Source: Myxococcales bacterium (GTDB lineage: Bacteria; Myxococcota_A; Polyangia; GCA-2747355). From it: 49,742 bases of DNA. The stretch covers positions 1-49,742 of the forward strand of contig JAGQIK010000298.1 of assembly GCA_020431405.1 (NCBI GenBank). Reading direction: 5' to 3'. How positions within the stretch are numbered: position 1 is the first letter of the stretch; every line of letters starts with the position of its first letter. Below the pieces are notes generated by a model. It was not told the origin of the DNA and searched no databases. It saw nothing but the letters and a program-made list of their open reading frames with translations. The position numbers and the translations under genes are program-made. Positions 1,729 to 43,355 of the stretch are shown here, piece by piece.

Positions 1729-4059
1729 GTGCCTGGCACCTCGATCATCGGCACCCACATACTCGGCCAGTACCGCATCGTGCGCGAGATCGCGCAGGGT
1801 GGCATGGGGACGATCTACCTGGCCGAGCAGCTGGCCATGGACCGCTTCGCCGCGATCAAGTTCGTCGTCGATCGCGGCCCGCGCGCCGCCGAGTGGCGCC
1901 GCCGCTTCCGCAAGGAGGCCCGCGCCGCCAGCCGCCTGGTGCACCCGCACATCGTCACGATCTACAACTTCAGCGAGCTCGCCGACGGCACGCTGTTTCT
2001 GGCGATGGAGTACCTGCAGGGCACCAACCTGCGCGACGCCATCAAGGCCGGCCCGCTGCCGGTTCGCACGGCGGTAACCCTCGCCGCGCAGTGCGCCGAG
2101 GCGCTCGCGCACGCGCACGAGCGTCAGGTCATCCATCGCGACTTCAAGCCCGAGAACATCATCGTCACCGAGATCTCGGGCAAAGACCACGTCAAGGTGC
2201 TCGACTTCGGCATCGCCCAGATCGTCGAAGAAAATGTCAGCTCCACCGAAAGCGGCGCGGTGCTCGGCACGCCGCGCTATCTGTCGCCGGAGCACTGTGC
2301 CGGCGAGGTCAGCACGGCGCTCAGTGATCAGTACGCCCTGGGGCTCGTGTTCTACGAGATGCTCACCGGCCAGTGCGCGATCGATGCAGAGACCGCGGTG
2401 GGCTTTCTCGAGGCGCATCGCCATCAGCAGCCGCGGCCGCCCTCGGCGCTGCGATCGCAGGTCCCGCCGGCCCTCGACAAGATCGTGCTGCGCATGCTCG
2501 CCAAGGAGCCGAGCGAGCGCTTCGCCACCATGGGGGAGGTCGCCGAGCGGCTGGTGCAGCTCGCGCGCCGCGTCCCCACGGTGCCCGGGCCGCAGGCCAC
2601 GCTGAGCAGCCTGTCCGCCGAGATGGCGATGCCCGAGCCGCGCCTCGAGGGCAGCCCCACGGCCGACGGCTTGCTGCGCACCGTTAGCACGCTCGGCCAG
2701 CACCCGCCGCGACGCGACGTCCGCGCCGTCGATGTGTCCGGTATCGTCTCGCGCGAAGGCGTCGAGCACCTCGCCGCGCACGGCATCCACCTCGAACGTG
2801 TGGCGCTCGACGAGTGCATCTCGACCTTCACCACCGAGGACCTGCTGCTCGCCGATGGTGACGAGGCGTCCGTCGCGCGCTTGACCGAAGCCAAGATCGC
2901 CGACCGTACGCTGCTCTACAGCGAGGTCGATGTCACCGACCCCGCGCTGCCCGCGCTGATCGAGCGCGTGCCCCACCTGACGATCGGCAACAAGCCCCTC
3001 GAGCCGCAGGTCATCGCAACGGCGCTGCGCTGGATCGAGCTCGGCGAAGGCGTTGGCGTCGAGCGCGCGGTCCTCGGCAGCGGAGTGCAGGTCGTCGAGG
3101 TCGTCTCGTCGGCGCTTGTCACGCAGTACGTCGAGGGCGTGCTCGAGGACGCCAAGTCGCAAGGCGTTCGTGACTGGGCGCTCAACGGGCTCGCCGAGCT
3201 GTGCGAAGAGCTGATCATGAACGGCATCTTCCACGCGCCGGTGGACGGCAGCGGCAATCATGTCTACGCCGACACGCCGCGCTCGCACGTCGTCGAGCTG
3301 CGGCCTGGCCACTGTCCGGTGCTGCGCTGGGCCGTGCTGCCGCGCTTTGTCGCCGTCTCGGTGCGCGATCCGTTTGGCTCGCTGCTCGCGAGCGACGTCG
3401 TGTCGTACCTGGCGAGCGCCTCGTCGACCAAGAAGAAGCACGGCGCTGGCAAGGGCCTGCAGATCGCGTGGCGCGCGGCGCGCCACCTGATCGTCGGCAG
3501 TGCGCCGAACGCCTGGTGCGAGGTGCTGGCGCTTTCGCCCCGCGAGCCGACACGCGAGCGCTCGCTGACGCTGTTGCGCCTGACGGGCACCAAGACGCGG
3601 CGCATCGGCGATGCGCTGTGGATCGAGCAGACACTTCGCGGCGGCGTGACGCAGCTCGAGGTGCGCGGACACATCGACGGCAGCTGCGACATGAGCCCGC
3701 TTTACGACCTCACCGGTCGTGTGGTTGTCGACCTCTCGCAGGTCGAGCGCATCAACTCGGCCGGCATCCGCGGCTGGACCGACGTGGCCGAGGTTGGCGA
3801 CGATCTGCAGCTCGAGCTCGAGCGCTGCTCGCTGGCGGTGGTCAGCCAGCTGAGCATGAACCCCGAGCTGACCGAGGGCGTCAAGGTGATCTCGGTCTTC
3901 GCGCCGTACACCTGCAAGCGCTGCCAGACCAGCGTGCAGAAGCTGATCCACGTAGAGGATCTCGACGGCGACAAGCCGCCCGCGCGGCGCTGCGCGCAGT
4001 GCGACAGCGACCTCGAGTTCGACGCGCTGCCCGAAGAGTTCTTCGCCTTCCGCCTCTAG
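1729..4059 (+). CDS. Multidomain Ser/Thr kinase with receiver-like, GHKL-like, STAS-like and zinc-ribbon domains
   Basis: This protein of about 776 residues is predicted to be cytosolic and signalling. Residues 12-280 are a Hanks-type kinase: AQGGMG loop (22-27), AAIK lysine, HRDFKPEN (136-143), DFG (159-161) and GTPRYLSPE. Residues of about 325-440 look like a degenerate receiver, ending in a Lys-Pro pair (GNKPLEP). Residues of about 490-620 resemble a GHKL ATPase: EELIMNGIFH with Asn498 and His502, then VSVRDPFGSL and GAGKGLQIA. A STAS-like domain follows (about 640-725, with RINSAGIRGW at 675), then a zinc ribbon with CKRC (729/732) and CAQC (755/758). The open frame extends far upstream, but that part is antisense to the reductase gene; the GTG at 1729 is the nearest start before the kinase fold. 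The last 130 residues match the C-terminus of the kinase at 23953. Kinase certain; middle domains inferred. Confidence 0.88.
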   Translation: MPGTSIIGTHILGQYRIVREIAQGGMGTIYLAEQLAMDRFAAIKFVVDRGPRAAEWRRRFRKEARAASRLVHPHIVTIYNFSELADGTLFLAMEYLQGTNLRDAIKAGPLPVRTAVTLAAQCAEALAHAHERQVIHRDFKPENIIVTEISGKDHVKVLDFGIAQIVEENVSSTESGAVLGTPRYLSPEHCAGEVSTALSDQYALGLVFYEMLTGQCAIDAETAVGFLEAHRHQQPRPPSALRSQVPPALDKIVLRMLAKEPSERFATMGEVAERLVQLARRVPTVPGPQATLSSLSAEMAMPEPRLEGSPTADGLLRTVSTLGQHPPRRDVRAVDVSGIVSREGVEHLAAHGIHLERVALDECISTFTTEDLLLADGDEASVARLTEAKIADRTLLYSEVDVTDPALPALIERVPHLTIGNKPLEPQVIATALRWIELGEGVGVERAVLGSGVQVVEVVSSALVTQYVEGVLEDAKSQGVRDWALNGLAELCEELIMNGIFHAPVDGSGNHVYADTPRSHVVELRPGHCPVLRWAVLPRFVAVSVRDPFGSLLASDVVSYLASASSTKKKHGAGKGLQIAWRAARHLIVGSAPNAWCEVLALSPREPTRERSLTLLRLTGTKTRRIGDALWIEQTLRGGVTQLEVRGHIDGSCDMSPLYDLTGRVVVDLSQVERINSAGIRGWTDVAEVGDDLQLELERCSLAVVSQLSMNPELTEGVKVISVFAPYTCKRCQTSVQKLIHVEDLDGDKPPARRCAQCDSDLEFDALPEEFFAFRL

Positions 4060-4092
4060 CCGCGCCGCCACCGTCGCCGCCGCACACGCACG

Positions 4093-4347
4093 CTACGGCG
4101 CGGCATGCGCGCGCACGCTCGGATGGTCGCGCCACGCTGGCATCTTGGCCATGAACGCGAGCGTGTCGCGCTCGGCCTGCTCGCGCGAGAGCCCGGGCTT
4201 GTTGCGCATCTGCCAGCCGACCATCTTCTCGAAGCGCTCGTCGAACGGCTGCAGCTCGCCGCTGGCAGTGACGCAGTACTGGCAGTAGTGGCCGCTCTCG
4301 ATCGGCATCGAGCAGCTCTCGCAGGTCTTTTTGCCGTGGTCAGTCAT
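4093..4347 (-). CDS. Small zinc-ribbon protein (Zn_ribbon_2-like)
   Basis: This is an 84-residue protein with CESC (Cys9, Cys12) and YCQYC (Cys22, Cys25), followed by a helical tail ending in KMPAWRDHPSVR. This matches the small putative zinc-ribbon family in which a ribbon precedes an MPAW segment; the function of that family is unknown. The start chosen is the ATG at 4347, which overlaps the marR stop in an ATGACTGA arrangement (8 bp). A longer frame reaching 4413 would run inside marR and is not needed. Translational coupling to the MarR regulator suggests a shared task, perhaps as a partner or a regulated product. The 3' end faces the kinase gene across a 33-bp gap. Confidence 0.75.
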   Translation of the reverse strand: MTDHGKKTCESCSMPIESGHYCQYCVTASGELQPFDERFEKMVGWQMRNKPGLSREQAERDTLAFMAKMPAWRDHPSVRAHAAP

Positions 4348-4825
4348 GGTCTCCGTCCTCCCGTGTGTGTCTCTCTCGCGCCGCCAGCATATCGGCGGCG
4401 CGCACCAGCGCACGCGTGCCCTCCAGCAGCGCGGCGCGCTCTTGCTCGGACATCTCGTCGAGGGCCGCTGCCAGCAGCTCGTGCGAGAGCACGTCCTGCA
4501 GGTGCACGACCAGCTCGCGTCCCTCGTCGCTGAGCCACACCAGCGTGCGGCGGCGGTCGTCCTCGTCGCGTACGCGCGCGAGCAAGCCGCGCCGCTCGAG
4601 GCCGCTGATGATGTCGCTGGCCACCGACTGGGCGCGGTCGAAGTGGCGCGCGCACTCGCCGACCGTCATCGGACCGCTCTCGGCGAGGTGGCTCAGCACC
4701 GCCTGGGCGACATTGGACAGCTCGGCGCCCTTGCCGTCGCGGCGGTGAAGGCGCCGGTAGACAGCCGGGAATAGCTCGCCGTAGCGCAAGGCGGCGGCGG
4801 TGACGATGTCGTTTGCCTGGCCCAT
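4340..4825 (-). CDS. MarR-family transcriptional regulator
   Basis: This 161-residue dimeric winged-helix DNA-binding protein carries a recognition helix region (TVGECARHFDRAQSVASDIISG) and a typical MarR wing, DEDDRRRTLVWLSDEGRE, where the RRR basic residues contact the minor groove. It is flanked by N- and C-terminal dimerisation helices. The ATG at 4825 is preferred over a TTG at 4849, because the TTG would lie inside a perfect inverted repeat (4848-4872) that is a good operator candidate. MarR proteins often repress their own operon and respond to small phenolic ligands or oxidation; no ligand can be deduced here. The gene overlaps the zinc-ribbon gene by 8 bp and follows the SpoIIE operon by 59 bp on the same strand. 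Confidence 0.92.
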   Translation of the reverse strand: MGQANDIVTAAALRYGELFPAVYRRLHRRDGKGAELSNVAQAVLSHLAESGPMTVGECARHFDRAQSVASDIISGLERRGLLARVRDEDDRRRTLVWLSDEGRELVVHLQDVLSHELLAAALDEMSEQERAALLEGTRALVRAADMLAARERHTREDGDHD

Positions 4826-4847
4826 ACCAGCGAGGTACTGCCGGGCC

Positions 4848-4872
4848 AATACATCGTCAACCCAGATGTATT
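4848..4872. promoter_or_regulatory. Candidate MarR operator (perfect 8-bp inverted repeat)
   Basis: AATACATC and GATGTATT form a perfect 8-bp inverted repeat separated by 9 bp. The sequence is AT-rich against a very GC-rich background and lies 23-47 bp upstream of the marR ATG, in the gap after the SpoIIE phosphatase gene. On the minus strand a TTGAC sequence, which could be part of a -35 box, falls in the spacer and second arm. MarR dimers bind pseudo-palindromes of this size next to their own promoter, so autoregulation is the likely role. The assignment rests on symmetry and position. Confidence 0.6.
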
Positions 4873-4884
4873 AGCTCGTCGGCG

Positions 4885-6468
4885 TCAGGGCGCGCCAAGC
4901 ACGCGCGCGACGACCAGCGTGACGTCGTCGCCGGGCGCCGCGTTGCCGCGGAAGGTATCGAGATCGGCGACGAGCTCGTCGCGCAGGGCGGCCGCGCCCT
5001 TGCCCGCGTGCCCCTCGATGGCCTCGCGCAGCCGGCTCTGGCCGTACTCTTCGCCGTCGGCGCGCTGGCACTCGAGCAGACCGTCGGTGAAGAGCACCAC
5101 GCTATCGCCTGGCACGAGCGGGTGGCTGATCTCTTTGTAGGGTGTGGGTTTCGTTCCGCCGCTGCCGCTGCTTCCGAGCGCGCGTCCGCGCGCCACCAAC
5201 GCCTTGACCTCTCTGTCGCCGCCCACGAGGTATGGAAAGCGGTGTCCCGCGTTGGCGACGTCAACGCCCTTGCCGTCGGCCTGAAAGAGCAGCGCCAACG
5301 CCGTGACGCGAAGCTCGCTGCCGGTGGCCTCGGCGACGGCGGCACCGAGCTCGTCGAGCACCGCGGCGGCGCTGATCTGCGCGGCGGGGCGGCGCATAAA
5401 CGCCGTCAGCGCGCCCTTGGCCACCGCCGTCAGCATCGCGGGGCCGACGCCGTGTCCGGTGGCGTCGCCGATGACGATCAGCACGCGACCGTCCTCGGCT
5501 GGCTGGTAGGCCCAAAAGTCGCCGCTGCAGCGCGCGGCCGGGCGAAAGTGACCCGCCACCGACAGGTGATCGCTGCTGTGCACCTGCGCGCCGGGCACGA
5601 TGGTCGCCTGCACGGCGCTGGCGAGCTCGAGCTCCTTTTCGAGCGCGACCTTGGCGGCGGATTCGAGCAGCAGCACCGAGACGCGCTCGGTCATGTGGTT
5701 GAAGCGTTCGGCGAGCACGCCGATCTCGTCGCGCGTGCCCACCGTCGCGCGGATCTCGAGATCTCCGTCGGCGACGCGGTTGGCGTGGTCAGCCAGCTGT
5801 CGGATCGGCCGCGTGATGCGCACGCCGAGCCACACCGCGAGGCCGGCGCCGATGATCAGCGCCAAGAGACCGATGGCGCTGGTGTAGATCACGCTGTTGC
5901 GGATGTTTTTGGCGCGCAGCGCTCGTGCGCGCGCGAGCGCCGCGTCGAGCTCGGTGAGCGATGTGGCCAACAGCACGGCGCCGAGCTTCTGCCCATCGTG
6001 CGAGACGGCCTGCGCCAGCACCAGCGAGCGACGCCCGCCGACCGTGGCGATGCGTTCGCCCGCGCGCGTCGGGTCGAGGTCGCCGAGCGTGGAGGCTGGC
6101 TTGCCCACGCGGGTGCGGTCGCTGTGGGCGACGACCAGACCGCGGTTGTTGCTGATCACCATCGCGGTGAAACGCCGTTGGCGCGCCATGTCGCCCACGA
6201 CCGTCTGCAGGGTGCTGTAGTCGTTGAGCAGCAGCAGCACGCGCGTCGAGTGTGATAGCAGCTGCAGCTGCTCGCGGCCGCCTTCGCGGATGGCGTCGCG
6301 AACGGTGGCGCGCAGGCGCGCGATGGAGTTGTCGATGCGCTCGCGCGTGCTGATAGCGTTGAGCGTCGAGATCAGGGCGATCACGCCGGCCAACGGCAAC
6401 GCGGTGAGCGCGATCAGGCGCCTGCTGATGCTCTTGGTCTTGAGATGTTGCGCTTCGGGCGGCGTCAT
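4885..6468 (-). CDS. Membrane-anchored SpoIIE-type PP2C phosphatase with HAMP domain
   Basis: This 527-residue protein has a transmembrane helix at about 18-40, an extracytoplasmic sensor region of about 150 residues, and a second helix at about 193-215. A HAMP domain (ITRPIRQL... at 218-265) and a short coiled coil follow, then a C-terminal PP2C/SpoIIE phosphatase. Metal-binding motifs are present: SGDFW (Asp317), GDATGHGVG (Asp335), FTDGLLE (Asp462) and GDDVTLVV (Asp514). Enzymes of this type dephosphorylate STAS-domain anti-anti-sigma proteins in partner-switching pathways. The ATG at 6468 overlaps the PhnD-like gene stop (ATGA). It is the last gene of a five-gene overlapping run, which suggests that the binding protein upstream supplies its periplasmic signal. 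That link is inference. Confidence 0.92.
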   Translation of the reverse strand: MTPPEAQHLKTKSISRRLIALTALPLAGVIALISTLNAISTRERIDNSIARLRATVRDAIREGGREQLQLLSHSTRVLLLLNDYSTLQTVVGDMARQRRFTAMVISNNRGLVVAHSDRTRVGKPASTLGDLDPTRAGERIATVGGRRSLVLAQAVSHDGQKLGAVLLATSLTELDAALARARALRAKNIRNSVIYTSAIGLLALIIGAGLAVWLGVRITRPIRQLADHANRVADGDLEIRATVGTRDEIGVLAERFNHMTERVSVLLLESAAKVALEKELELASAVQATIVPGAQVHSSDHLSVAGHFRPAARCSGDFWAYQPAEDGRVLIVIGDATGHGVGPAMLTAVAKGALTAFMRRPAAQISAAAVLDELGAAVAEATGSELRVTALALLFQADGKGVDVANAGHRFPYLVGGDREVKALVARGRALGSSGSGGTKPTPYKEISHPLVPGDSVVLFTDGLLECQRADGEEYGQSRLREAIEGHAGKGAAALRDELVADLDTFRGNAAPGDDVTLVVARVLGAP

Positions 6469-7373
6469 CGACGCCGACCAAGATAGCCGGCGAGCGTCGA
6501 GGGCGCGAGCCGCATGTCGCGGCGGTCGAGGCGACGCACGGCGCCGGCGCTGAGCAGCGGTGCGTCGGCGACCAGGCGCGGCGCGAGCAGCGGCTTTTCG
6601 AGGCGTGCCAGCGCGCGCGTCGTCTCGACGCCGACGGCGTGCCACCCATCGAAGACGGCCCCCGGCAGCTTGGTAGCGAGCGCCGCGCGGCGCGCCGCGG
6701 GCAGATCGAGCGAGCGTCGCACGGCGACCATGATCGGGTTGATGAAGCGCCCCAGGCCGACGCGAAGCTCGAGGCCGTGGTCTGCCACGGGGGCGACGGC
6801 GCAGTCTGCCTGGCCAAACTTGACCGCTGCGATGGCGTTGCTGGCGGTGCGCACGCGGCGCACGCGCGAAAAGAGGCGGTCGAGCGGCGCGACGCCGGCA
6901 AACAAGACGCGTGCGACGAAGTCGAGGTCGGGCCCGCCGCTGCGCGCGATGGCGATGGTCTTTCCAAGCAGCGACGCGCTAGTCGTGCTCTTGCTGTAGA
7001 GGCCCCAGCGTCGGCTGGTTGCTCCGCGATGCGTGGCGATGGCGATGGCGCGTAAGGCGTGTCGCTTGCGGTGCGTGGTGTAGTAGAGCGGGTCGACGAC
7101 GGCGATATCGATGCGGCCGCCCGCGATCGCGCGGTCGAGCTGCGCAGCCGTCGCGAAGACCAGCGCGCGTGCGGGCCTGCCGAGCGCGGCGCCCAGCTTG
7201 GACGCCAGCGTCTTGCCGTAGGCCGCCTGCTTGTATGGTCCGCCCAGCGCGCCGTTGGGCAAGAGCAACGCGACGCGCAGCGTGGTGTCGGCGGCGTGCG
7301 CGCCAGCAGCGCCGAGCGCGAAGAGCAGGGCCAGCGTCGCGAGGACGCCGCGCAGCGTTGCACGCGCTCTCAT
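6465..7373 (-). CDS. PhnD-like periplasmic substrate-binding protein
   Basis: This 302-residue protein has a clear signal peptide (residues 1-28, ending GAHAAD). The mature part resembles the phosphate/phosphonate binding-protein family: an early VALLLPNGALGGPYKQ strand-loop, a GGRIDIAVVDPLYYTTH motif (the family's G-x-x-D-ig-x-x-x-P-x-x-Y pattern), RSGGPDLDF, and AAVKFGQADCAVAP followed by a hinge. No ABC permease or ATPase gene is next to it. Its 4-bp overlaps with the TPR gene before it and the SpoIIE phosphatase gene after it argue for a sensory rather than a transport role. PhnD-type proteins are known as sensory domains of some signalling proteins. The ligand cannot be determined from sequence alone. 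Confidence 0.8.
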   Translation of the reverse strand: MRARATLRGVLATLALLFALGAAGAHAADTTLRVALLLPNGALGGPYKQAAYGKTLASKLGAALGRPARALVFATAAQLDRAIAGGRIDIAVVDPLYYTTHRKRHALRAIAIATHRGATSRRWGLYSKSTTSASLLGKTIAIARSGGPDLDFVARVLFAGVAPLDRLFSRVRRVRTASNAIAAVKFGQADCAVAPVADHGLELRVGLGRFINPIMVAVRRSLDLPAARRAALATKLPGAVFDGWHAVGVETTRALARLEKPLLAPRLVADAPLLSAGAVRRLDRRDMRLAPSTLAGYLGRRR

Positions 7374-9952
7374 GGCGACACCAACTTTTCGCCGAGGAGC
7401 TGTGCGAGGCGCGCGATCCACAGCGGCAGCCGCGGCGCGCGCACCCGTCCGCCGCGTTTGGCCCGTCGCAGGTGGGCCAGCGCGCGACGCGGGTCCTTGC
7501 GGCGCAGCGCGATGGCCGCGAGGTCGAGGTGCGTGCGTGGGATCTCTGCCGCCAACGTGCCGAGGTCGGCGCGCGCGCGCGGCAGCGACCGCGTCGAGGC
7601 AGCGAGCTTGACCACCAGGATGTCGTGCCGCTGTGCGGCAGTGCTCGGCGTGACGCTCGATAGCTGCGCCAGCGCGACGTTGTAGCGTCCGCTGTCGACG
7701 TAGCGCCGCGCCAGTCGGAGGCGCGCAGCCGTCGCGATGCGAGCCGCCAGCGCGGCCAACCGTGGCGCGTCGCGTTTGCTGGCCTGCGCCAGCGCTTCGA
7801 TCTGTTGCGTAGCGCGAAGCAACGTTCGCCGTGACCTGCCGCGCAGGCGCGCGTAAGCGCCGATGAAGCGGATCCAGCGTCTGGCGACGCGGCCGGCGGT
7901 ACGCGCGGGCACGCACGCGCGCGCGCGTGGGCCGAGCGCTTTGGTCGTGCGCCGAGCATCGCCGAGCTGCGCCCACGCGACCGCGAGCGCGCATCGGCCG
8001 CGCTGCGCCAACGCGCCGGCAGTGCCGCCGCTGATCTTGCCCAGGCGATCGAGATCCTCGAGCGCTTCGCGCGTGGCGCCGGCGGCGATGCGCGCGTGCG
8101 CGCGACGCAGCAGAACGCGAGCCATGTTGGTGCGCGCCGAGCGCGCCACGGCGAGCGCCGCGTCGCTTCCGCTGAGCGTCGACAGCTCGCGCAGCTGGCG
8201 CAGCCCTTCGCGGCGTTTGCCGCGCCGCACGTCGTTGAGCGCGCGATCGAGGCGGATCCGTTGCAGGTCCGCGCGCAGGCGCCTTCGTGTGGGCACCGAC
8301 AGTCGACCGTCTAGGGCGCGGCGCACGAGCCGAGCCGCGCGTGCGAAATGCGGGGCTGCCGCCGCGAGGTCGCTGCGCGCGTAGTAGGCACGCGCGAGCA
8401 GGTGCGCGACAGCGTGTCGCGGCCGCGCCTTCTCGGCGGCGAGCGCCCGCAGCGCTGTGATCGCCGCCTTGACCTTGCCCCGCGCGAGCAGCACCTGCGC
8501 CAGGTCTCGCCGCGTGGTCACATCGCGCGGGACACGATCGAGGGCGCTGCGCAGCAGCTGCTCGGCGTGCTCGAGCTTGCCCGCGTGGTAGGCCGCGGCG
8601 GCCAGCGCGCCGAGCGAGATCAGCAGCGGCTGCAGCGAGGCTGGCCGATGGCCGTGCTGCAGCGCCGCTCGCAGTGCCTTGGCGGCGACGTCGTGCTCCT
8701 CGCGCGCCTGATGCGCCCGACCGAGGACCCACGAAATCTCGGCGCCATTGGCTTGGAGCGCGGCGCCTGCCACTTTGGCCAGTCGCTCGATGACCGCTGC
8801 GGCGTCTCCGAGGCGCAGCGTCGCGCGGCCCCACAACGCGAGCAAGGCCCAGCGGCGCTTCCCGCGCCGGCGCGGCAGCGCGCGCTGGCAGAGCGATTGT
8901 GCGTCGTCTGTGTGCCCGAGCTGCAGCATCAGCTGCGCACGCTCGAAGACGGCATCGGCGCCGAAACGAAGATCGCCGCGCGGGTCGAGCTTGTCCGCTC
9001 GCGCGTAGTCGTCGAGCGCGCCGCGCGTGTCGCCCGTGGCGCTGCGCGCTCGGGCGCGCAGCAGCAATCCGCGCCCGTCGAGGCGGCCGCCGCGCAGCGT
9101 CGCGTAGCGTGCCATCGATACGAGCGCTTGCCGCGGCGCGCCCTTGCGCAGCAAGCACAGCGCCTCGTTGTGGGCGATGAAGGGCAACTTCTTCTCGAAG
9201 CGCCGCAGCGCGCGTAGCTGCGGCAGCGCGCTGTCGCAGCGACCGAGCGCCGCGTTGGCGGCAGCGAGCAGCGCCCGCGGCGCGACATCGCGCGGAGGCT
9301 CGCCCTCCGCGGCGGGCGCGCCGATGAGCCCGGAGGCGATGCGCTTGGCCTCGGCGTAGCGGCCGCTGTGCAGCGCGGCGAGCGCTAGGCCGAGCCGGGC
9401 GCGCCGCTCTCCGCCGTCGGCGCGTGGCGTGGCGCTGCGCTGCACGAGGTAAGCGCGCAGCGCGGAGGCCGCTTTGGACCAATAGCCCAGGCGCAGGCCG
9501 ACCTCGCCGAGAAGCAGCGCGGCCGCGGGCGAGGAGAGATCAGCCGCGCGTGCACGCTCGAGCACGCGCCACGCCTCGACGAGCTTGCCGCGCGCCTCGA
9601 GGTGATAGCCAAGCCGCGTCAGCAGCCCGGCGTGGGCGGCACCTAGGTAGCCGAGGCCGCGCCGCAGGATGCGGATCGCCGCCGCGTGGCGACCGAGCCG
9701 TGCCAGCACGGACGAGAGGTCGAGGTAGGCCGCCTCGAGCGTCGGGTCGCTCTCGGTGGCGTGCAGCAGCAGCGCTGCAGCGCGGTCGAGCCGACCGCTG
9801 CGCTCGAGCCAGCGCGCCTGCCGCACCAGCGCGGTCGTCTGGGCGCGGGCCAACGACGTCTGCGCCGTCGCGAGACGCGGCACGCCGGCAACAACCGCCG
9901 CTGTCGCCAGGGCCAGCGCCAGCTGCAGTGCTGTTAGCGGTTGGCGATGCAA
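7370..9952 (-). CDS. Exported tetratricopeptide-repeat protein
   Basis: This 860-residue protein begins with a signal peptide (hydrophobic LALALATAAVVAG, cleavage near ATAQ at about residue 30). It is then almost entirely helical TPR-like repeats, for example LDRAAALLLHATESDPTLEA and HAAAIRILRRGLGYLG. Arg, Ala and Leu dominate. No catalytic domain is seen; TPR arrays of this kind are protein-protein scaffolds, here in the periplasm. The start is a TTG at 9952 that overlaps the nucleotidase-domain gene by 19 bp. No ATG or GTG lies between it and the signal peptide, and the signal peptide fixes the frame. The stop overlaps the PhnD-like start by 4 bp. It may bridge the outer-membrane receptor and the binding protein of the same operon. 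Confidence 0.85.
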   Translation of the reverse strand: MHRQPLTALQLALALATAAVVAGVPRLATAQTSLARAQTTALVRQARWLERSGRLDRAAALLLHATESDPTLEAAYLDLSSVLARLGRHAAAIRILRRGLGYLGAAHAGLLTRLGYHLEARGKLVEAWRVLERARAADLSSPAAALLLGEVGLRLGYWSKAASALRAYLVQRSATPRADGGERRARLGLALAALHSGRYAEAKRIASGLIGAPAAEGEPPRDVAPRALLAAANAALGRCDSALPQLRALRRFEKKLPFIAHNEALCLLRKGAPRQALVSMARYATLRGGRLDGRGLLLRARARSATGDTRGALDDYARADKLDPRGDLRFGADAVFERAQLMLQLGHTDDAQSLCQRALPRRRGKRRWALLALWGRATLRLGDAAAVIERLAKVAGAALQANGAEISWVLGRAHQAREEHDVAAKALRAALQHGHRPASLQPLLISLGALAAAAYHAGKLEHAEQLLRSALDRVPRDVTTRRDLAQVLLARGKVKAAITALRALAAEKARPRHAVAHLLARAYYARSDLAAAAPHFARAARLVRRALDGRLSVPTRRRLRADLQRIRLDRALNDVRRGKRREGLRQLRELSTLSGSDAALAVARSARTNMARVLLRRAHARIAAGATREALEDLDRLGKISGGTAGALAQRGRCALAVAWAQLGDARRTTKALGPRARACVPARTAGRVARRWIRFIGAYARLRGRSRRTLLRATQQIEALAQASKRDAPRLAALAARIATAARLRLARRYVDSGRYNVALAQLSSVTPSTAAQRHDILVVKLAASTRSLPRARADLGTLAAEIPRTHLDLAAIALRRKDPRRALAHLRRAKRGGRVRAPRLPLWIARLAQLLGEKLVSP

Positions 9953-10719
9953 TCGGTCGTGAGCGTGATGCGCCCTTCGGTCTTGGGCGATACGGGAGAG
10001 TTCTTCGCGAAGTAGTCTTCGACCACGGGGTGCTCCTTGAGCGTCGTGGTCATGGCCTGCTGCTCGCCGAGCTGCACGTGGCCGTCGCTGCCCGACGCGA
10101 TGAACGCGGCGAGCACGATCTTGTAGGTGGCCTCGGGATCGACGTCCGCGCCGCCGACCTTGATGCTCGTGACGCGGTCACCCTCGCTGACGATCGACTT
10201 CGCCTCGGCGTCGAGCTGCTGCGCCGTGCGCGAGCAGTCGGCGCTGTAGCTCATGCCGGCCACGTGCACGAAGTAGCCTTTGATTTCGCCCGGGATGCCC
10301 GAGACGCCGCGCTCGAGCGTCGATTTGAGCACGTCGCCCGTGACCTCGACGATCACCAGGTCGTTGTTGAAGGGCAGCACGACGTCGAGCTCCGCGCGCG
10401 TGAAGTCGCCGGCGGGGATCGTGTAGCTCGCGCACTGCGTGGCGTCGTGCTCGGCGGGGCAGCGCAGGCCGCCGCCGTTGACGATGGCGATGTCGGCGCT
10501 CGCGCCGGCCGCCGCGAGGAAGGCGTCCGCGATCAAGTTGCCGATGGGCGCCTCTTGGTTGCGCGTCAGCGTCTCGCGTAGCTCGAGGTCAACGGCCGTC
10601 TTGCCGATCACGACCGCGCCCGGGTCGTCGCTCCCGCACGCGGTCAAACCGCACGCGACCAGACCGAGCACCACCACGCCGAACACCGCCCGCGACATCA
10701 GAAGCTGGGTCATCTTCAT
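9934..10719 (-). CDS. Lipoprotein consisting of a 5'-nucleotidase C-terminal domain
   Basis: This 261-residue protein has a lipoprotein signal (GLVACGLTACGSDD, lipidated Cys most likely in LTAC). The rest matches the C-terminal substrate-binding domain of UshA-type 5'-nucleotidases: IGNLIADAF, DIAIVNGGGLR, GDFTRAELDVVLPFNNDLVIVEVTG, LKSTLERGV, then TYKIVLAAFIASGSDGH. The N-terminal metallophosphoesterase domain that normally performs the hydrolysis is absent, and the protein is complete, with its own start and signal. It may therefore bind a nucleotide or sugar-phosphate rather than cleave it. It overlaps the TonB receptor gene by 4 bp (ATGA) and the TPR gene by 19 bp. Confidence 0.87.
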   Translation of the reverse strand: MKMTQLLMSRAVFGVVVLGLVACGLTACGSDDPGAVVIGKTAVDLELRETLTRNQEAPIGNLIADAFLAAAGASADIAIVNGGGLRCPAEHDATQCASYTIPAGDFTRAELDVVLPFNNDLVIVEVTGDVLKSTLERGVSGIPGEIKGYFVHVAGMSYSADCSRTAQQLDAEAKSIVSEGDRVTSIKVGGADVDPEATYKIVLAAFIASGSDGHVQLGEQQAMTTTLKEHPVVEDYFAKNSPVSPKTEGRITLTTDCIANR

Positions 10720-13010: not shown

Positions 13011-13158
13011 GAGTCGTGGAAGCGCTGGCGTCGAGACTACACCGCTCGCTGGCCCGCGGGTTGCTACGACTGACGCTCGTGACCATACGGCCAAGGCCTC
13101 GAACGCGCGTGTGCCGCGGCGCGCGCTGCGCACGACCGTGAGCAGCGGCTGGAGACAG

Positions 13159-14799: not shown

Positions 14800-14899
14800 C
14801 GGCCGCGCCATCGTCGCAAAGTCGAAGGCCGGAGGGGGCGTGCGACCTAGCGATTTCAAGGGCTTGCCCTGGGCATAGGCCTTGCTCTGGCCTCTTGGC

Positions 14900-16486: not shown

Positions 16487-16506
16487 CAGCCGCGCCCGTC
16501 GAGACG

Positions 16507-17223
16507 TTACGTCGGCAGCCGCCGCAGGTCGTCGAGCAGCCGCCGCGCGTGGCGGGCGAAGTAGCGCAGCGGGTGTTTGCCCGCGCGCTGCGCCGGCCTG
16601 AACGCGATGTCGTGCCAGTAGATGCCGTGGTGGCGTTGGTGCAGCAGCGCGACGGCGACGTTGCTGAGCAGAAAGTCGGTCGGCACGCGCGCGAGCACCC
16701 AGCGTGTGGTCTCGGCCGACATCAGCCGATAGGGCACGTTGGCGTCGCGTACGTAGACGCCGCTGCGCGCGTAGAGCAACAGGCGCAGCGCCGCCTGGAT
16801 CAGCGCGCGCCGGCGCCCGTCGCCGCGCTCGCGTCGCCGCCCGTAGTGCAGCGGCCCGCGCCCGCGCTGTTGCCAGAAGCGGGCGAGGTAGCGCGGATCG
16901 CACTGGCCGTCGGAGTCGACCTGCAGCACCCACTGCGCGCCGCGGCGCAGCGCCTCGGCGTAGCCGTAGAGGCAGCTCGGACCGTGCCCCGAGTTGTCCT
17001 TGCGCACCACGACGAGCGTCTCGCGTCGCGCCGCGAGCTCGCGCGCGATGTCGGCCGTGCCGTCGGTAGAGCCGTCGTCGACGAGCAGCAGCGTCGCCTC
17101 GGCGTCGTCGAGAGCGGCGATGGCGTCGAGCCACTCGGCGAGCACCGCGGCGATGGCTTGCCGCTCGTTGTAGACCGGCATCACGACGATCAGTCGCTCG
17201 CGGTCTTCGTGGCCCTGCGACAT
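16507..17223 (-). CDS. Glycosyltransferase family 2 (dolichol-phosphate-mannose-synthase-like)
   Basis: This 238-residue enzyme has the GT-A fold of the GT2 family, which moves a sugar from a nucleotide donor to a lipid or glycan acceptor. Visible motifs are the first strand with VVMPVYNERQAI (13-25), LLVDDGSTDGTADIA (47-60), and the metal-binding QVDSDGQCDP (101-110), followed by the ANVPYRLM segment and a basic tail. The ATG at 17223 gives a start immediately before the fold. No C-terminal membrane helices are present, so it is cytosolic and peripheral at most. It diverges by 49 bp from the GT-C gene, which probably uses a lipid-linked sugar. A donor-making/acceptor-using pair is the natural inference. 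Confidence 0.9.
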   Translation of the reverse strand: MSQGHEDRERLIVVMPVYNERQAIAAVLAEWLDAIAALDDAEATLLLVDDGSTDGTADIARELAARRETLVVVRKDNSGHGPSCLYGYAEALRRGAQWVLQVDSDGQCDPRYLARFWQQRGRGPLHYGRRRERGDGRRRALIQAALRLLLYARSGVYVRDANVPYRLMSAETTRWVLARVPTDFLLSNVAVALLHQRHHGIYWHDIAFRPAQRAGKHPLRYFARHARRLLDDLRRLPT

Positions 17224-17272
17224 GTGCGAGACTAGCCCCCGCCTACGAGATGCCGCAGAGTAAGGGCCGCGC

Positions 17273-19723: not shown

Positions 19724-21074
19724 ACCCGCTGAGCGCGTGCGCCGCGTCGCGACCGCTGAGGATCGAGTGGTCCATGTTGAAGTACTCCCACTGGCCGAAG
19801 CGGCCGCGGCTGTGCACGTCGTGCGCCGCGACAAACGCCTCCAGCGTGGCGAGGTCGGCGCGGTGCTCGAGGTGATAGATGATGTAGGCCGGGTCGAGCG
19901 TGTGGATGTTGGCCACCAGCACGCGGCCGCCCTCGGCGGCGGGTCGCGCCTCGCGCGCGTCTAGCAGCCCGATGTCGACGAGGCCCTCGAGCGTCTGCGC
20001 GACGAGCGTGGCGCGCTCGAGCGGGCGCTTTTGCGACGTGCTGATCTCGGCTTGGATCGAGCAGCAACCGGGCGGCGCCATGCTCGCCGAGAAGCGATGC
20101 GGGTAGCTGATGCGATGAAAGACCGTCCGCTCTTCCGGCAGATAGACCCAGTGGCGTAGTGCGTCGTCGGCGAGCGTGGCGCCGCGCAGCCCGATGTTGA
20201 CCGTGTGAACCACGTTGTGCTGCAGCCGCCGCAGCGCGGCGCGTACGCGTTCGTCGTCGAGCGCGCGGGCGCCAGCGAGGGCCAGCAAGCGCGGAAGCGG
20301 CAGCGTCGAGATCAGCCGCTCGTAGGCGAGCGTCTCGCCGCCGTCGAGGGTCAGTCGCTTGGCCTCGAGGTCGATGGCGGTCACGCGTGTCTCGAGCCGC
20401 AGCCGCGACGCGGGGATCTCGCGGGCCAGCGCGCGCGGCAGCGCTTCGATGCCGCCGCGCTCGGGATACCAGAACTCGCGGTTGGGGCCGTAGGCCTGCG
20501 TCGGCGGCTGCAGCGCGCCGAGGATCACGTCCTCGAGGCGCGGGCGCGGAACGCGCTCCGCGATCCAGTCGAAGCCCATCTCGGCGAGGTCCCAGGCCCA
20601 GACGCGGCGGTTGTAGGGCAGCATGAAGTGGCGTGCGATGCCGCGCCCGAAGGTGCGCTCGATCCACTCTTCGAAGTTGCGCGGCGCCGCGGCGTCACGG
20701 TCGTAGATCGCCTCGACGAGGCCGAGGATGTTGTCGGCGATGACCTCGGCGGGCAGGCCGAAGGTGTGCGCCTGATACGGATACTCCGTGTAGACGCCGC
20801 GCGAGTAGCAGAAGCTGCGGCGCGCTTGGCGCACCAAGTTGCCGTCGAGCAGGCGCTGCAGCAGCTCGCCGGCGTAGGGGTCCGCCGTGTAGAGGATGTG
20901 GATCGAGTAGTCGAAGGCGAAGCCGTCGAGCTCGAGGGTGCGCGCCAGGCCGCCCACCTCGTCCTCGCGCTCGACGAGGAGGTAGTCGCTGAAGCCGAGC
21001 TCTTCGAAATGGTAGGCGGCGGAGAGGCCGGTCAGGCCGGCGCCGACGATGACGACTTGGGGCACGAGCCCCAC
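19713..21074 (-). CDS. FAD-dependent amine-oxidase/UDP-galactopyranose-mutase-like protein
   Basis: This 453-residue flavoprotein opens with the FAD-binding Rossmann motif VVIVGAGLTGLSAAYHFEE and VEREDEVGGLARTL, then FAFDYSIHIL, where UDP-galactopyranose mutases and protoporphyrinogen-oxidase-like enzymes position the flavin. It ends with a typical C-terminal FAD-proximal segment (GRFGQWEYFNMDHS). Homologues of this type are common in polysaccharide loci and are predicted to rearrange or oxidise nucleotide-activated sugars, but the reaction is not fixed. Two GTG starts (21074, 21065) are possible and differ by three residues. Its 3' end overlaps the GT-C gene by 11 bp, in line with a local glycan cluster. 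Confidence 0.83.
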   Translation of the reverse strand: MGLVPQVVIVGAGLTGLSAAYHFEELGFSDYLLVEREDEVGGLARTLELDGFAFDYSIHILYTADPYAGELLQRLLDGNLVRQARRSFCYSRGVYTEYPYQAHTFGLPAEVIADNILGLVEAIYDRDAAAPRNFEEWIERTFGRGIARHFMLPYNRRVWAWDLAEMGFDWIAERVPRPRLEDVILGALQPPTQAYGPNREFWYPERGGIEALPRALAREIPASRLRLETRVTAIDLEAKRLTLDGGETLAYERLISTLPLPRLLALAGARALDDERVRAALRRLQHNVVHTVNIGLRGATLADDALRHWVYLPEERTVFHRISYPHRFSASMAPPGCCSIQAEISTSQKRPLERATLVAQTLEGLVDIGLLDAREARPAAEGGRVLVANIHTLDPAYIIYHLEHRADLATLEAFVAAHDVHSRGRFGQWEYFNMDHSILSGRDAAHALSGSSS

Positions 21075-21096
21075 GCTAGCACGTCGCTCGGGGCGC

Positions 21097-21750
21097 TTAG
21101 GGCGTTTGCGGCGCGGGGCGCTCGCAGATCACGGTGTCGCGGCCCGGGTCGTCGCAGCTGGCGTCGTTCCACAGGCCGCGCAGCTCGGTGACCTTGAGGT
21201 TGTGTCCCCAGACGACGACGCAGTTTTCACTGCCGCTCTCGTTGTTGGGCTCGCCCGGCGCCCAGGCGACGTAGTTGGCGGCCTTGCCCGAGGCCCACTG
21301 GAAGTGCGCGGCGGTCGTGCGCTTGAGTGCGATCCAGGCGGCTTGCCCGCCGCCCACCGGGATCGACTGCAGCAGCGTGTAGATGAACTTGTTCTCGGCG
21401 TCGGAGGTGATCTCGGCGACGTCAGCGCCGCGCGAGGCGCACAGCGCGGCGGCGGTGGCGTAGTCCATCCACTTGACGCCGGGCGCCGAGTAGCAGTGAC
21501 CGTCGAAGAGCATCTCGTCGGCGTTGCAGCTGTAGGTCGGCGCGGCCGGCGCCGTGTCGGGCGCCAGCGTGTCGGCGGCGGCGCCCGCGTCGGCGTCGGG
21601 GACGTATAGGTCGAAGGTGCTGTCGAGCGAGCCTGACGTGTCCCCGCCGAGCTGCACGCTAGTCGGGCTCGCGTCGGGGAAGTCGATGTACTCCGTGCCG
21701 CCACACCCTACGCAGAGGGCGCACACGGCGAGAACCTTCGTGATGTGCAT
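21097..21750 (-). CDS. Lipoprotein with a C-type lectin domain
   Basis: This 217-residue protein has a signal peptide with lipobox (KVLAVCALCVGC), an Asp/Ala linker, and a complete C-type lectin-like domain. Key features are a first CNADEMLFDGHCY, ATAAALCASRGADVAEI, AAWIALKR, the calcium- and sugar-contacting APGEPNNES, and GLWNDASC before the final CERP. The EPN and WND pair is the signature of calcium-dependent mannose/glucose-type binding, so it may bind glycans at the cell surface. ATG 21750 puts the signal peptide at the N-terminus; upstream starts (21768 and the open frame to 21861) are possible. It lies 22 bp upstream of the flavoprotein gene on the same strand and may share its transcript. 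Confidence 0.88.
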   Translation of the reverse strand: MHITKVLAVCALCVGCGGTEYIDFPDASPTSVQLGGDTSGSLDSTFDLYVPDADAGAAADTLAPDTAPAAPTYSCNADEMLFDGHCYSAPGVKWMDYATAAALCASRGADVAEITSDAENKFIYTLLQSIPVGGGQAAWIALKRTTAAHFQWASGKAANYVAWAPGEPNNESGSENCVVVWGHNLKVTELRGLWNDASCDDPGRDTVICERPAPQTP

Positions 21751-21932
21751 GGTCTGGCGAACGTGCATCGGCCGTGCCGCCATCGTGCACGCTGCATGTG
21801 TGCGAAAAAACGTGAGCGCGAATGCAACGCGATGCCTAAGAGTACCGGCGCGCGTGGCCATCCCGTTACAAGCGTTGCAGATGCGTTTATCGCGGCGGGA
21901 AGGACGACGGCGGATACCCGTATTGAGTCGTC

Positions 21933-22826
21933 GTGTTAGCCGCCCACCGCCTACTACATCTGACTACTGCGCTCGCGCTGCTGGCGCTCGTCGCGGGCTG
22001 CGATGACAGCGGCGACTTCTACGACGCGCGCTCGTCTTCGGGTGACGCCGCGACGCGCGATGGCCCAGGCGGCCGCCGCGACGGCGGCGACCTGACGCAG
22101 TTCACCGACGGGCGCGCGCTCGATGGGGGTGGCGCTGGCGAAGGTGGCGCAGGCGACGGGGGCGCTGGCGATGGCGCCGCACGCGACGCCGCCGCCGACG
22201 CCACGCCCGCGTGCGATAGCAGCGTCGACACGGCGCCCGCGCGCGACAGCAGCGTCGACACCGCCGCGCCGGGCGACAGCAGCGTCGACAGCACGAGAGA
22301 CAGCGGCAGCAACCCCACCGGGCTGACGGTGCCGTGCAAGAGCGGACCCGGCTGGACGCTGTTTCGCTTTCACTACGACAGCGGCAGCACCAGCGCGCGC
22401 ATCGACGTTTGGGATGCCAGCTGCAGCTACTCGTTCGCGCCCAACAGCGCCTGCAACGTGCGCGAGGTGTATCCCGGCTTCGGCACGGTGAGCCGCACGT
22501 CGCAGGGCTACCCGATCTTCACCACCACGCAGTATCTGCGGGTGCGCTTCAGCGCGGCGGGGCTGAGCTTCAGCAAGGCCGCCGTCTACATCCAGGCGCG
22601 CTCGTACGCCACCTCGTCGTCGACGTACTTTCGTATCTGGTCGCCGCTCTATGGCGCGATCAAGGCCGGCCCGGTGGACAACGACTTCGTCTACGACTGG
22701 TACGGCGTCGACTGGACCGGCTTGTTGTACCCCAGCGACCAGCCGAGCTTGACCGCGATCCAGGTCTACGCCGACTCGGGGTCGGGACAGCTCGCCGTCA
22801 AGGCCGTGGAGCTGTGCGTGCAGTAG
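21933..22826 (+). CDS. Lipoprotein with low-complexity Asp/Ala/Gly linker, unknown function
   Basis: This 297-residue protein starts at GTG 21933, with signal peptide and lipobox LALVAGC. Residues of about 25-130 are low complexity, with three 10-residue repeats (D-S-S-V-D-T-A-x-x-x). The C-terminal part, about 170 residues, is rich in Ser, Tyr and Phe with strand-like patterns: WTLFRFHYDSGSTSARIDVWD, TQYLRVRFSAAG and AVYIQARSYATSSSTYF. It looks like a beta-sandwich, possibly a carbohydrate-binding or adhesion domain, but no family was recognised. It diverges from the lectin gene by 182 bp and is 52 bp upstream of the PilZ gene on the same strand. Confidence 0.75.
   Translation: MLAAHRLLHLTTALALLALVAGCDDSGDFYDARSSSGDAATRDGPGGRRDGGDLTQFTDGRALDGGGAGEGGAGDGGAGDGAARDAAADATPACDSSVDTAPARDSSVDTAAPGDSSVDSTRDSGSNPTGLTVPCKSGPGWTLFRFHYDSGSTSARIDVWDASCSYSFAPNSACNVREVYPGFGTVSRTSQGYPIFTTTQYLRVRFSAAGLSFSKAAVYIQARSYATSSSTYFRIWSPLYGAIKAGPVDNDFVYDWYGVDWTGLLYPSDQPSLTAIQVYADSGSGQLAVKAVELCVQ
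22215..22304 (+). repeat. 30-bp coding tandem repeat, three copies
   Basis: Three 30-bp units, starting at 22215, 22245 and 22275, encode D-S-S-V-D-T/S followed by variable Ala/Pro/Arg residues. They lie in the linker of the lipoprotein at 21933 and probably vary in copy number between strains, as such linkers often do. Confidence 0.8.
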
Positions 22827-22878
22827 CGCGCTCGCTCTCGCGCCGCGACCAGCCTCTCTTTTGATAGGATTGGCGTCG

Positions 22879-23949
22879 GTGGAGCGACGGGTCAGCGCAC
22901 GCATCGAGACGGAGCTGTACATCGGGGTCGTCGGCGTCGACGAGGCGCCCGTCCTGCGGCGCGGCAACTTCAGCAGCACCGGCGTCTACTTCGAGATCGA
23001 CCGTCCCATCGGCGAGGTCGGCTCGCTGCAGCGGCTGCACCTTCTGTCCTACGACCGCTCCATCGAGCTGCGCGTGGTGGCGCGCATGGCAAGGCGTGTA
23101 CAGATCGACGACCTGCACCACCGCGCGCGTCCCGTCACCGGCGCGGGGTTGCAGTTCTTCCCTGGCAACGAGCACGAGCGGGCCACGCTAGTGCGCCTGT
23201 TGCGCGCTGTGATCAAACATCAGGTGGCGCGCGATCTCGAGGTCGACCACGGCTACGAGACCAGCATCGGCGACAACAACGCGGCTTCGACGGTACAGCT
23301 GAGCGTGCACCGCATGCTGCTCGACACGAGCCATCCGCTCGAAGTGGGCGAGCTCGTGGAGTTCGACATTCGCCCCGGCAGCGGCGCCGCGGGCGTGCCG
23401 TTCAGCGGCAAGGTCACGCGCGTAGCGCCTCGCGTGCAGCCCGACGGCAGCGAGACCTATCGCGTGGAGGTTTCGATCGGCGAGGAGCGCGCCGACGCCG
23501 GCACGCGCTCGCAGCGCCTGCACGATGCGTCGCTGTCGTTCAACGACACCATCGATCGCGCTTTCACCGATCTACTCGCCGCCGAGTCAGACGAGCGCCC
23601 GCATCTCGACGACGATCTGATGGGACAGCTGGCGCGCATTCCGCTCACCTCGCTGCTGCCGCTTTTCGAGATGGAGCGCATGTCGGGCGAGCTCAAGCTC
23701 AGCGACGGCGGGCTCTCTCGCGCGCAGGTCTTTCTGCGCGACGGGCGTGTCATCGACGCCGTCGCCGATCCCGCGCGACCGCATGTCAGCGCGCGACAGC
23801 TGCTCGGAGAGCTGATGCGCTGGCGCGACGGCACGTTCGAGCTGACCCTCGGCGCCGTCGAGCGCCCCGACCGCATCGAGACGCCGACCACGGTGCTGAT
23901 GCTCGACCTCGCGCGCGAGCATGACGAGCGACAGCGGTCGGAGCACTGA
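22879..23949 (+). CDS. PilZ-like plus DUF4388 (PATAN) regulatory protein
   Basis: This 356-residue cytosolic protein has an N-terminal PilZ-like region (ERRVSARIETELYIGVV... with the basic RR pair near the start, then NFSSTGVYFEI). A second PilZ-like beta segment follows (TVQLSVHRMLLDT... FSGKVTRVAPR). The C-terminal block of about 110 residues matches DUF4388: IPLTSLLPLFEMERMSGELKLSDGG, VFLRDGRVIDAV, LGELMRWRDGTFELTL. PilZ proteins commonly sense cyclic di-GMP, and DUF4388 proteins are frequent in Myxococcota signalling; ligand binding is not proven here. The GTG at 22879 is chosen because AGGA lies 9 bp upstream; earlier TTG codons exist. Three bases separate it from the following kinase gene, so co-transcription is likely. 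Confidence 0.83.
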   Translation: MERRVSARIETELYIGVVGVDEAPVLRRGNFSSTGVYFEIDRPIGEVGSLQRLHLLSYDRSIELRVVARMARRVQIDDLHHRARPVTGAGLQFFPGNEHERATLVRLLRAVIKHQVARDLEVDHGYETSIGDNNAASTVQLSVHRMLLDTSHPLEVGELVEFDIRPGSGAAGVPFSGKVTRVAPRVQPDGSETYRVEVSIGEERADAGTRSQRLHDASLSFNDTIDRAFTDLLAAESDERPHLDDDLMGQLARIPLTSLLPLFEMERMSGELKLSDGGLSRAQVFLRDGRVIDAVADPARPHVSARQLLGELMRWRDGTFELTLGAVERPDRIETPTTVLMLDLAREHDERQRSEH

Positions 23950-23952
23950 CCG

Positions 23953-25344
23953 ATGTACTCGGCGCCGGACCGCTGGATCGGACAGCTGCTCGACGGCAGG
24001 TATCGCATCGAGCGCGTGATCGAGCGCGGCGGAATGGGCACCGTCTATCTGGCGCAGGCCGAGCGCATCCAGCGCGAGGTCGCCGTCAAGATCGTCAGCG
24101 CGCGGCCGCAAGCGGGACAAAACGATCTGCGCCGTCTCGCGCGCGAGGCGCGCGCGGTCAACCTCATCGGCCACCCCAACATCGTCGACGTGATCGACTT
24201 CGGCTGGATCGACGAGCGCGCGGCTTTCCTGGTGATGGAGTTGCTCGTCGGCGAGTCTCTCGACGCGCGCCTGGCCACGGTGCGGCGGCTGCCGCTCGAG
24301 CACACCTGCACGATCCTGACGCAGGTCGCCTACGCGCTCGAAGCGGCGCACCAGCGCGGCGTCGTGCACCGCGACGTCAAGCCAGGCAACGTCTTTCTGG
24401 TGCAGACCAAGGTGCGCGCCGACGTGGTCAAGGTGCTCGACTTCGGTGTCGCCTCGTTGCGCGAGGTCGACGGGCGCTCGAGCGATCTCGATCTCGCAGA
24501 CGACAAGATCATCGGCACGCCCGCCTACCTCGCGCCGGAGCAAGCGCGCGGTAAGTCGACGGTGGACCAGCGCGCCGATGTCTTCGCGCTCGGCATCACG
24601 ATGTACACCATGCTCTGCGGCGAGCCGCCCTTCGTCGCCGAGACGCCCATCGACACGTTGCTGCGCATCCTCAACGACGAGCACGTCCCGCCCAGCCAGC
24701 GAACCGAGCTCGAGTTGCCACGAGAGGTCGACGCGCTGATCGACGAGGCGCTGCGCAAAGAGCCCGCCGAGCGGCTGCCCACGGCGAGCGAGTTTCGTCG
24801 CCGTCTGGTGGGGCTGCGCCAGCTGCTCGATCACCCCACGCGGCGCCGCGAAGAGCGCATCGAGCTGCCTGTGCGCCGACAGTTCGGCGCGTGGGTCACC
24901 AACCAGCGCGGTCGCGCGGTGGTCGAGCTGTCCGGCGTCATCGACGAGCGCGCGGATCTGCAGGCGCTCGACATGCGCATCGGCGGTGAGATCCTGCACC
25001 TCAAGCTCGGACGCGTCACGCGCATCAACTCGCAGGGCTACCAGCGCTGGGTCAGCTGGCTGCGGCGCGTGCGCGAGTCCGGGCGGCAAGTGGTCTGCCA
25101 CGAGTGCTCGCCGGTGGTGGTGCGTCAGGCGAGCATGGCGTCGGGTTTCATCGAGCCGAACGAGATCGCCACCATCTACGCGCCCTACTTCTGCGAGAAC
25201 TGCGACATCGAGCATTTGGCGCTGCTGTCGTCGGACGCGATCCGCCGCGGCGAGTTCGAGGGGCCGATGTGCACGAGCTGCAACACCAACATGCAGTTCG
25301 ACGAGGTGGCTCAGACGTACTTCTTGTGCGTCTTCGGCTCGTGA
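23953..25344 (+). CDS. Ser/Thr kinase with C-terminal STAS-like and zinc-ribbon domains
   Basis: This 463-residue cytosolic Hanks-type kinase has ERGGMG at 24-29, AVKIV, HRDVKPGN (139-146), DFGVA (163-167) and GTPAYLAPE; the fold ends near residue 285. No transmembrane segment was seen. The C-terminal region of about 145 residues is a STAS-like domain with VELSGVID (about 322), RINSQGYQRW (357-366) and VRQASM. It is followed by a zinc ribbon with CENC (414/417) and CTSC (440/443) and the ending FDEVAQTYF. This whole C-terminal module is homologous to the end of the protein at 1729-4059. The ATG is 3 bases after the PilZ gene, and its stop overlaps the GTG of the next gene (GTGA). A role in relaying PilZ or membrane signals is plausible. 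Confidence 0.9.
   Translation: MYSAPDRWIGQLLDGRYRIERVIERGGMGTVYLAQAERIQREVAVKIVSARPQAGQNDLRRLAREARAVNLIGHPNIVDVIDFGWIDERAAFLVMELLVGESLDARLATVRRLPLEHTCTILTQVAYALEAAHQRGVVHRDVKPGNVFLVQTKVRADVVKVLDFGVASLREVDGRSSDLDLADDKIIGTPAYLAPEQARGKSTVDQRADVFALGITMYTMLCGEPPFVAETPIDTLLRILNDEHVPPSQRTELELPREVDALIDEALRKEPAERLPTASEFRRRLVGLRQLLDHPTRRREERIELPVRRQFGAWVTNQRGRAVVELSGVIDERADLQALDMRIGGEILHLKLGRVTRINSQGYQRWVSWLRRVRESGRQVVCHECSPVVVRQASMASGFIEPNEIATIYAPYFCENCDIEHLALLSSDAIRRGEFEGPMCTSCNTNMQFDEVAQTYFLCVFGS

Positions 25345-41435: not shown

Positions 41436-43355
<1,920 letters not shown>

Follow-up and report, generated by a model that had tools for sequence, protein, structure and literature searches.

The partner-switching systems of Bacillus, SpoIIAA/SpoIIAB/SpoIIE and RsbV/RsbW/RsbU, co-encode a STAS protein with a loop serine, a HATPase with a Ser-kinase fold and a PP2C phosphatase of the SpoIIE family. 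Myxobacteria possess very large sets of Hanks-type kinases, together with many STAS and SpoIIE-type proteins. Here, we analysed a stretch of 49,742 nucleotides from a Myxococcales bacterium (contig JAGQIK010000298.1; "the window" denotes this whole stretch), in which two Hanks-type Ser/Thr kinases, called protein 1 and protein 2, end in the same C-terminal module. Our reading, to which we give a probability of about 0.72, is that this tail serves a partner-switching system as its phospho-switched STAS component, here with a zinc ribbon and coupled to Hanks-type kinases, and that its switching depends on a SpoIIAB/RsbW-like HATPase together with a phosphatase of the SpoIIE type.

Other described systems share parts of this arrangement. 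LvrC of Leptospira joins a receiver to a Bergerat anti-sigma-like (RsbW-like) domain (PMC13269768, PDB 9qih). In Vibrio fischeri, SypE, a receiver-containing Ser kinase/phosphatase, controls the STAS protein SypA through one conserved serine, Ser56 of SypA, without evidence there for a sigma-factor output (PMC4517449). In Sorangium cellulosum, fusions of eukaryotic-like kinases (ELK) to COG1366 (STAS) were noted in 2010 in a study of the myxobacterial phosphatome and read as an ELK-linked function (PMC2887360).

The module family resembles the Bacillus systems in its STAS loop serine, its HATPase with a Ser-kinase fold and its co-encoded SpoIIE-family PP2C. It differs from them by the zinc ribbon on the STAS domain, by an Asn instead of an Asp before the serine, by a receiver-like domain on the HATPase and by fusions to Hanks kinases, PilZ, FIST and PDZ domains. 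Nor did a sigma factor emerge as its target, though no search was directed at one. As in LvrC, a receiver-like domain precedes an RsbW-like HATPase, and LvrC was the top Foldseek match of the C-terminal half of protein 1 (E 7.7e-6); however, LvrC has no STAS domain, ribbon or Hanks kinase, and only its HATPase part superposes well (Z 11.2, 146 residues). Unlike this family, SypE unites kinase and phosphatase in one chain and SypA has no ribbon. Since the Sorangium proteins likewise join a Hanks-type kinase to an anti-anti-sigma (STAS) domain, the joining of kinase and STAS is not in itself new; no ribbon is reported for them, and their STAS domains may or may not belong to the module family. 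We searched the literature, with most subscription journals outside its scope, for STAS domains with a zinc ribbon, with a zinc finger and PilZ, or with a kinase, and found no description of the family; a review confined to STAS does not mention zinc. Thus, within the literature searched, the zinc ribbon, the pairing with a receiver-like HATPase, the breadth of the family and the all-in-one protein appear to be undescribed.

Over their final ~147 residues the two proteins are homologous, aligning across 148 columns with 28% identity (E 2e-16), and the folds of these tails are predicted alike. An earlier sequence-only reading of the window had proposed the shared module, a RINS loop resembling a STAS site and a CxxC...CxxC pattern, and we found all of them in both proteins (RINSAGIRGW and CKRC...CAQC in protein 1, RINSQGYQRW and CENC...CTSC in protein 2). 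The proposed FD-x(5)-F ending is correct for protein 1 (FD-x5-F) and has to be amended for protein 2, where it is FD-x5-YF. When the tails were searched against Pfam, only sub-threshold STAS matches were obtained, at 17-18 bits for both tails with PF13466 or PF01740 against a curated cut-off of 29.2, and no NCBIfam model scored above its cut-off for either tail. Such a tail on a kinase is a non-standard architecture, as had been supposed, and the sub-threshold scores mean that the module is overlooked by current models rather than absent. Zinc-finger matches in a PDB profile search (Aart, PRDM9, ZBTB17) were short Cys-pattern matches that vanished with a STAS-only profile, and they were not used.

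The fold of both tails was then compared by VIA-align over module residues 1-90, that is the STAS part before the ribbon. For the protein 2 tail as modelled by AlphaFold2 (26 homologues, mean predicted local distance difference test (pLDDT) score 94.8), STAS domains rank first, with TM1442 at Z 8.7 (89 aligned, root-mean-square deviation (rmsd) 2.1) and further matches to SulP STAS domains, SpoIIAA, RsbS and RsbV; Foldseek gave SpoIIAA as the best match. The C-terminal half of protein 1 was modelled as 441 residues (pLDDT 87.7, predicted template-modelling score 0.76), and its tail matched TM1442 at Z 13.0 (96 aligned, rmsd 2.0) and RsbV at Z 12.9. Hence both tails match STAS domains first, as the sequence-only reading expected, and their predicted folds do not differ. 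Together, these data lead us to predict that the shared tail is a STAS domain with a CxxC...CxxC zinc-ribbon signature.

In the profile alignment, the N-S-x-G of the module falls on the D-S-A-G loop of TM1442, whose serine stands at the established phosphoacceptor position of SpoIIAA/RsbV. When second copies of double-module proteins are excluded, the loop serine is kept in 147 of 152 modules. The second copies (for example in L047, L152 and L154) have it in 0 of 19 cases, with Pro in 13, and keep the ribbon cysteines in 18. Being aligned with the SpoIIAA/RsbV position and nearly invariant, the loop serine is a plausible phosphoacceptor, as previously suggested. Over 171 modules, all four ribbon cysteines are present in 136, none in 19 and some in 16. 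This all-or-none pattern suggests a single metal site.

Protein 1 had been described simply as a kinase with the tail. The tail is there, but the ~300 residues between the two are receiver-like and HATPase regions, homologous to a stand-alone receiver-like/HATPase protein that we call RH (phmmer E 7.5e-10). The N-box (E..N), DxFG and GAGxG motifs are all kept in RH, and residues 115-271 of the 441-residue model match SpoIIAB (1th8_A, Z 12.2) and RsbW (Z 11.3). As these are the known partners of SpoIIAA and RsbV, which the tail itself matches, we counted this correspondence in favour of a pairing. Concerning the receiver part, a sub-threshold Response_reg match was found in one RH protein, and the Foldseek alignment to LvrC runs across it.

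The genomic distribution of RH follows that of the module. Their presence agrees in 56 of 59 genomes (23 with both, 33 with neither; Fisher 5e-13, in a test that ignores genome kinship), and their copy numbers correlate with a rho of 0.95 over the same genomes. Of the 16 double-module loci, 12 have an RH gene immediately ahead of the module gene in the same orientation, separated from it by 78-258 bases; of the 16 stand-alone loci, 7 do so, mostly in Bdellovibrionota, at a distance of 53-88 bases. SpoIIE-RH-module runs also occur in that phylum (e.g. L118, L120, L124 and L130). In the genome from which the window comes, 6 of 7 RH matches lie at most 2.2 kb from a module. A conserved neighbour of 330 residues was considered as a candidate RH and ruled out, being a periplasmic binding-like protein. 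RH also seems to have a second use: at L191:4393-6558 (-), in the same genome, it is fused to a long C-terminal part with PEGA repeats and has no module nearby, and at L192, L193 and L199 it carries a C-terminal part of similar length, again without a nearby module.

The phosphatase side is also represented at these loci. The sensor half of the SpoIIE protein of the window is homologous (E 3e-40) to the SpoIIE of a conserved cluster in which SpoIIE, TPR and binding-protein genes stand ahead of a stand-alone module (L052, L053, L057 and others). Since three neighbours of protein 1 are homologous to genes of this cluster (Table 1), protein 1 lies in a rearranged version of it. Of the six strong SpoIIE genes in the own genome, three are within 0.9 kb of a module (binomial 4e-6), at distances of 36, 42 and 853 bases. 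In two operon-like runs from two different families, L186:3-8050 (-) and L170:768-11221 (-), SpoIIE, a FIST-FIST_C-two modules-PDZ protein, a kinase-module protein and RH occur together, so that every part of the proposed switch is present, with RH placed differently in each.

We next determined how widely the module is spread. The own genome (11.2 Mb) holds 11-12 copies; the module occurs in 25 of 59 genomes of a sample of relatives, where a single genome may have as many as 22, and in 24 of 189 genomes of a phylum-wide sample. A scan of named genomes gave 79 loci, nearly all in Myxococcota or Bdellovibrionota, by a pattern search skewed to the membrane-tail subfamily. Five genomes of 11-13 Mb from one genus of the same class have zero copies. 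Among the 157 distinct module open reading frames (ORFs) from which architectures were taken, the commonest is module, linker and membrane tail; the others include stand-alone proteins of ~165 residues, two modules with a membrane segment and PDZ, receiver-PilZ-module and FIST-FIST_C-two modules-PDZ. Besides the window pair, the search for other kinases with the tail returned four: L170 and L186 have the kinase-module architecture of protein 2, L051 and L151 the kinase-RH-module architecture of protein 1. The notion of a tail specific to kinases is thereby ruled out, the module being a mobile domain with most copies elsewhere. Moreover, a single clade of the six kinase tails was rejected (approximately unbiased (AU) test, p 1.5e-5), which rules out one duplication behind them all and indicates that the module joined kinases more than once. 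The tails of protein 1, L051 and L151 cluster together (support 100/99); a clade of the two window tails alone was not rejected (p 0.08), with protein 2 on a long branch.

We propose the following mechanism. RH, through its SpoIIAB/RsbW-like HATPase with a receiver-like domain, would phosphorylate the serine of the loop (Ser677 and Ser360 in proteins 1 and 2, respectively), and a membrane SpoIIE-type PP2C phosphatase reading a periplasmic signal would dephosphorylate it, so that the phospho-state would set the binding partner of the module. In protein 1, HATPase and STAS substrate are fused behind the Hanks kinase; the switch could gate this kinase, or its dimer, in cis and would be served by the phosphatase encoded next door. 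Protein 2 would be an acceptor only, switched in trans by an RH protein. The direction of control may run either way, the Hanks kinase being either the controlled output or an extra input that phosphorylates the module.

A rival reading is self-regulation by the Hanks kinase: the tail would be an autoregulatory or output domain, and its serine would be phosphorylated in cis by the kinase domain, the HATPase being unneeded. The six kinase fusions speak for it, as does protein 2, which has no HATPase and yet conserves the loop serine. However, the majority of modules occur outside kinases, RH co-occurs with and adjoins the module instead, and the AU test indicates that the tail was joined repeatedly rather than having co-evolved with kinases. 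Since the module is paired genetically with a SpoIIAB/RsbW-like HATPase and a SpoIIE phosphatase, the HATPase is the likelier phosphorylating enzyme, and we regard autoregulation as unlikely. Somewhat less probable still is a scaffold or docking domain that, by STAS dimerisation and contacts of the ribbon with protein or nucleic acid, gathers kinases, PilZ and FIST sensors into one shared complex without any phospho-switch. Its very diverse fusion partners, among them membrane tails, PDZ and FIST, and the retention of ribbon cysteines in the Ser-less second copies would fit such a role; against it stand the near-invariance of the phosphoacceptor serine outside second copies and the tight pairing with a kinase/phosphatase couple. 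Finally, in a high-GC genome with numerous long spurious ORFs, two GC-rich C-termini could resemble each other by chance or composition, an explanation refuted by the E value of 2e-16, by more than 150 homologous ORFs and by a confident common fold.

Several observations weigh against a phospho-switched STAS partner served by RH and SpoIIE. Pfam gives no Response_reg match in the receiver region of protein 1, pLDDT is a modest 60-75 in the first 60 residues of the C-terminal-half model, where this region lies, and the co-occurrence test for module and RH takes no account of kinship among genomes. The window SpoIIE gene is convergent with that of protein 1, with two genes intervening. No RH or SpoIIE gene is found within 19 kb of protein 2, nor near the receiver-PilZ-module loci. 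In addition, the Asp that precedes the serine in SpoIIAA is Asn in the module, and the 19 modules lacking all four cysteines indicate that the ribbon is dispensable in some copies.

Table 1. Features of the window relevant to the STAS-zinc-ribbon module
Feature	Position	Strand	Evidence or detail
Protein 1 ORF: Hanks Ser/Thr kinase, receiver-like, HATPase, STAS, zinc ribbon	1729..4059	+	776 residues, single chain; start GTG
Protein 1 Hanks-type kinase domain	1765..2556	+	GGMG, AIK, HRD, DFG motifs
Protein 1 RH region: receiver-like, then SpoIIAB/RsbW-like HATPase	2740..3570	+	homology to stand-alone RH; fold match
Protein 1 HATPase N-box	3205-3222	+	EELIMN
Protein 1 HATPase G1	3367-3378	+	DPFG
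Protein 1 HATPase G2	3442-3456	+	GAGKG
Protein 1 STAS-zinc-ribbon module	3634..4056	+	alignment, model, motif positions
Protein 1 loop Ser codon	3757	+	Ser677
Protein 1 ribbon Cys codons	3913, 3922, 3991, 4000	+	
HAMP-SpoIIE PP2C phosphatase, membrane-bound, candidate for loop Ser	4885..6645	-	Pfam SpoIIE 127 bits, HAMP 63 bits
Periplasmic solute-binding-like protein	6465..7376 (start approximate)	-	phmmer 1.9e-20 to L057 member, 5.7e-27 to L052 member
TPR protein of conserved cluster	7370..9952	-	phmmer 1.6e-18 to L074 TPR gene
PilZ-DUF4388 protein	22861..23949	+	Pfam PilZ 36.5 bits, DUF4388 59.8 bits; 3 bases upstream of protein 2
Protein 2 ORF: Hanks Ser/Thr kinase, STAS, zinc ribbon, without HATPase	23953..25344	+	463 residues; start ATG
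Protein 2 STAS-zinc-ribbon module	24904..25341	+	model, STAS matches
Protein 2 loop Ser codon	25030	+	Ser360
Protein 2 ribbon Cys codons	25192, 25201, 25270, 25279	+	

Both ORFs were recovered as described in the sequence-only reading, and their kinase halves are indeed ordinary: Pfam Pkinase scores are far above cut-off (145.7 bits for protein 1 and 156.8 bits for protein 2), and the catalytic Lys, HRD and DFG are present in both. The two genes are unlinked, as had been stated, with 20 kb between them and different neighbours. A small zinc-ribbon protein (PF12674; 4093-4413, -) and a MarR-type regulator (4340-4849, -) separate protein 1 from SpoIIE. The PilZ-DUF4388 gene is probably in the same operon as protein 2, and it recalls the receiver-PilZ-module fusions. 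At L046:7619-10911 (+), in the own genome, a stand-alone module is immediately followed by a GGDEF-PilZ-receiver-HATPase protein of 949 residues; judging from its domains, this arrangement may connect the switch to cyclic di-GMP. The window further encodes a third Hanks-type kinase without the STAS-ribbon tail (41430-43352, +; ORF of 641 residues) and a protein (21097-21861, -) that looks secreted and, on inspection by eye, similar to a C-type lectin domain, with a GEPNN motif.

For the family as a whole, which in the genomes surveyed was found almost only in Myxococcota and Bdellovibrionota, we incline, at little better than even odds, to a partner-switching network that spans the family, with receiver-HATPase kinases and SpoIIE phosphatases dedicated to it, and that is plugged into Hanks kinases, FIST sensors, PilZ proteins of cyclic di-GMP signalling and membrane anchors. 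Protein 1 would then be a self-contained switch, and double-module proteins would combine a switchable first copy with a Ser-less second copy as fixed partner. With more than 150 ORFs below Pfam cut-offs and as many as 22 copies in one genome, the family exposes a gap in domain models. It also provides defined residues, namely Ser677, Ser360 and the HATPase N-box, and a natural control in the double-module proteins, where the serine is confined to the first copy. Whether Hanks-kinase and STAS/SpoIIE phospho-systems are connected is a question already raised for myxobacteria (PMC2887360), and the module family physically joins both in one chain.

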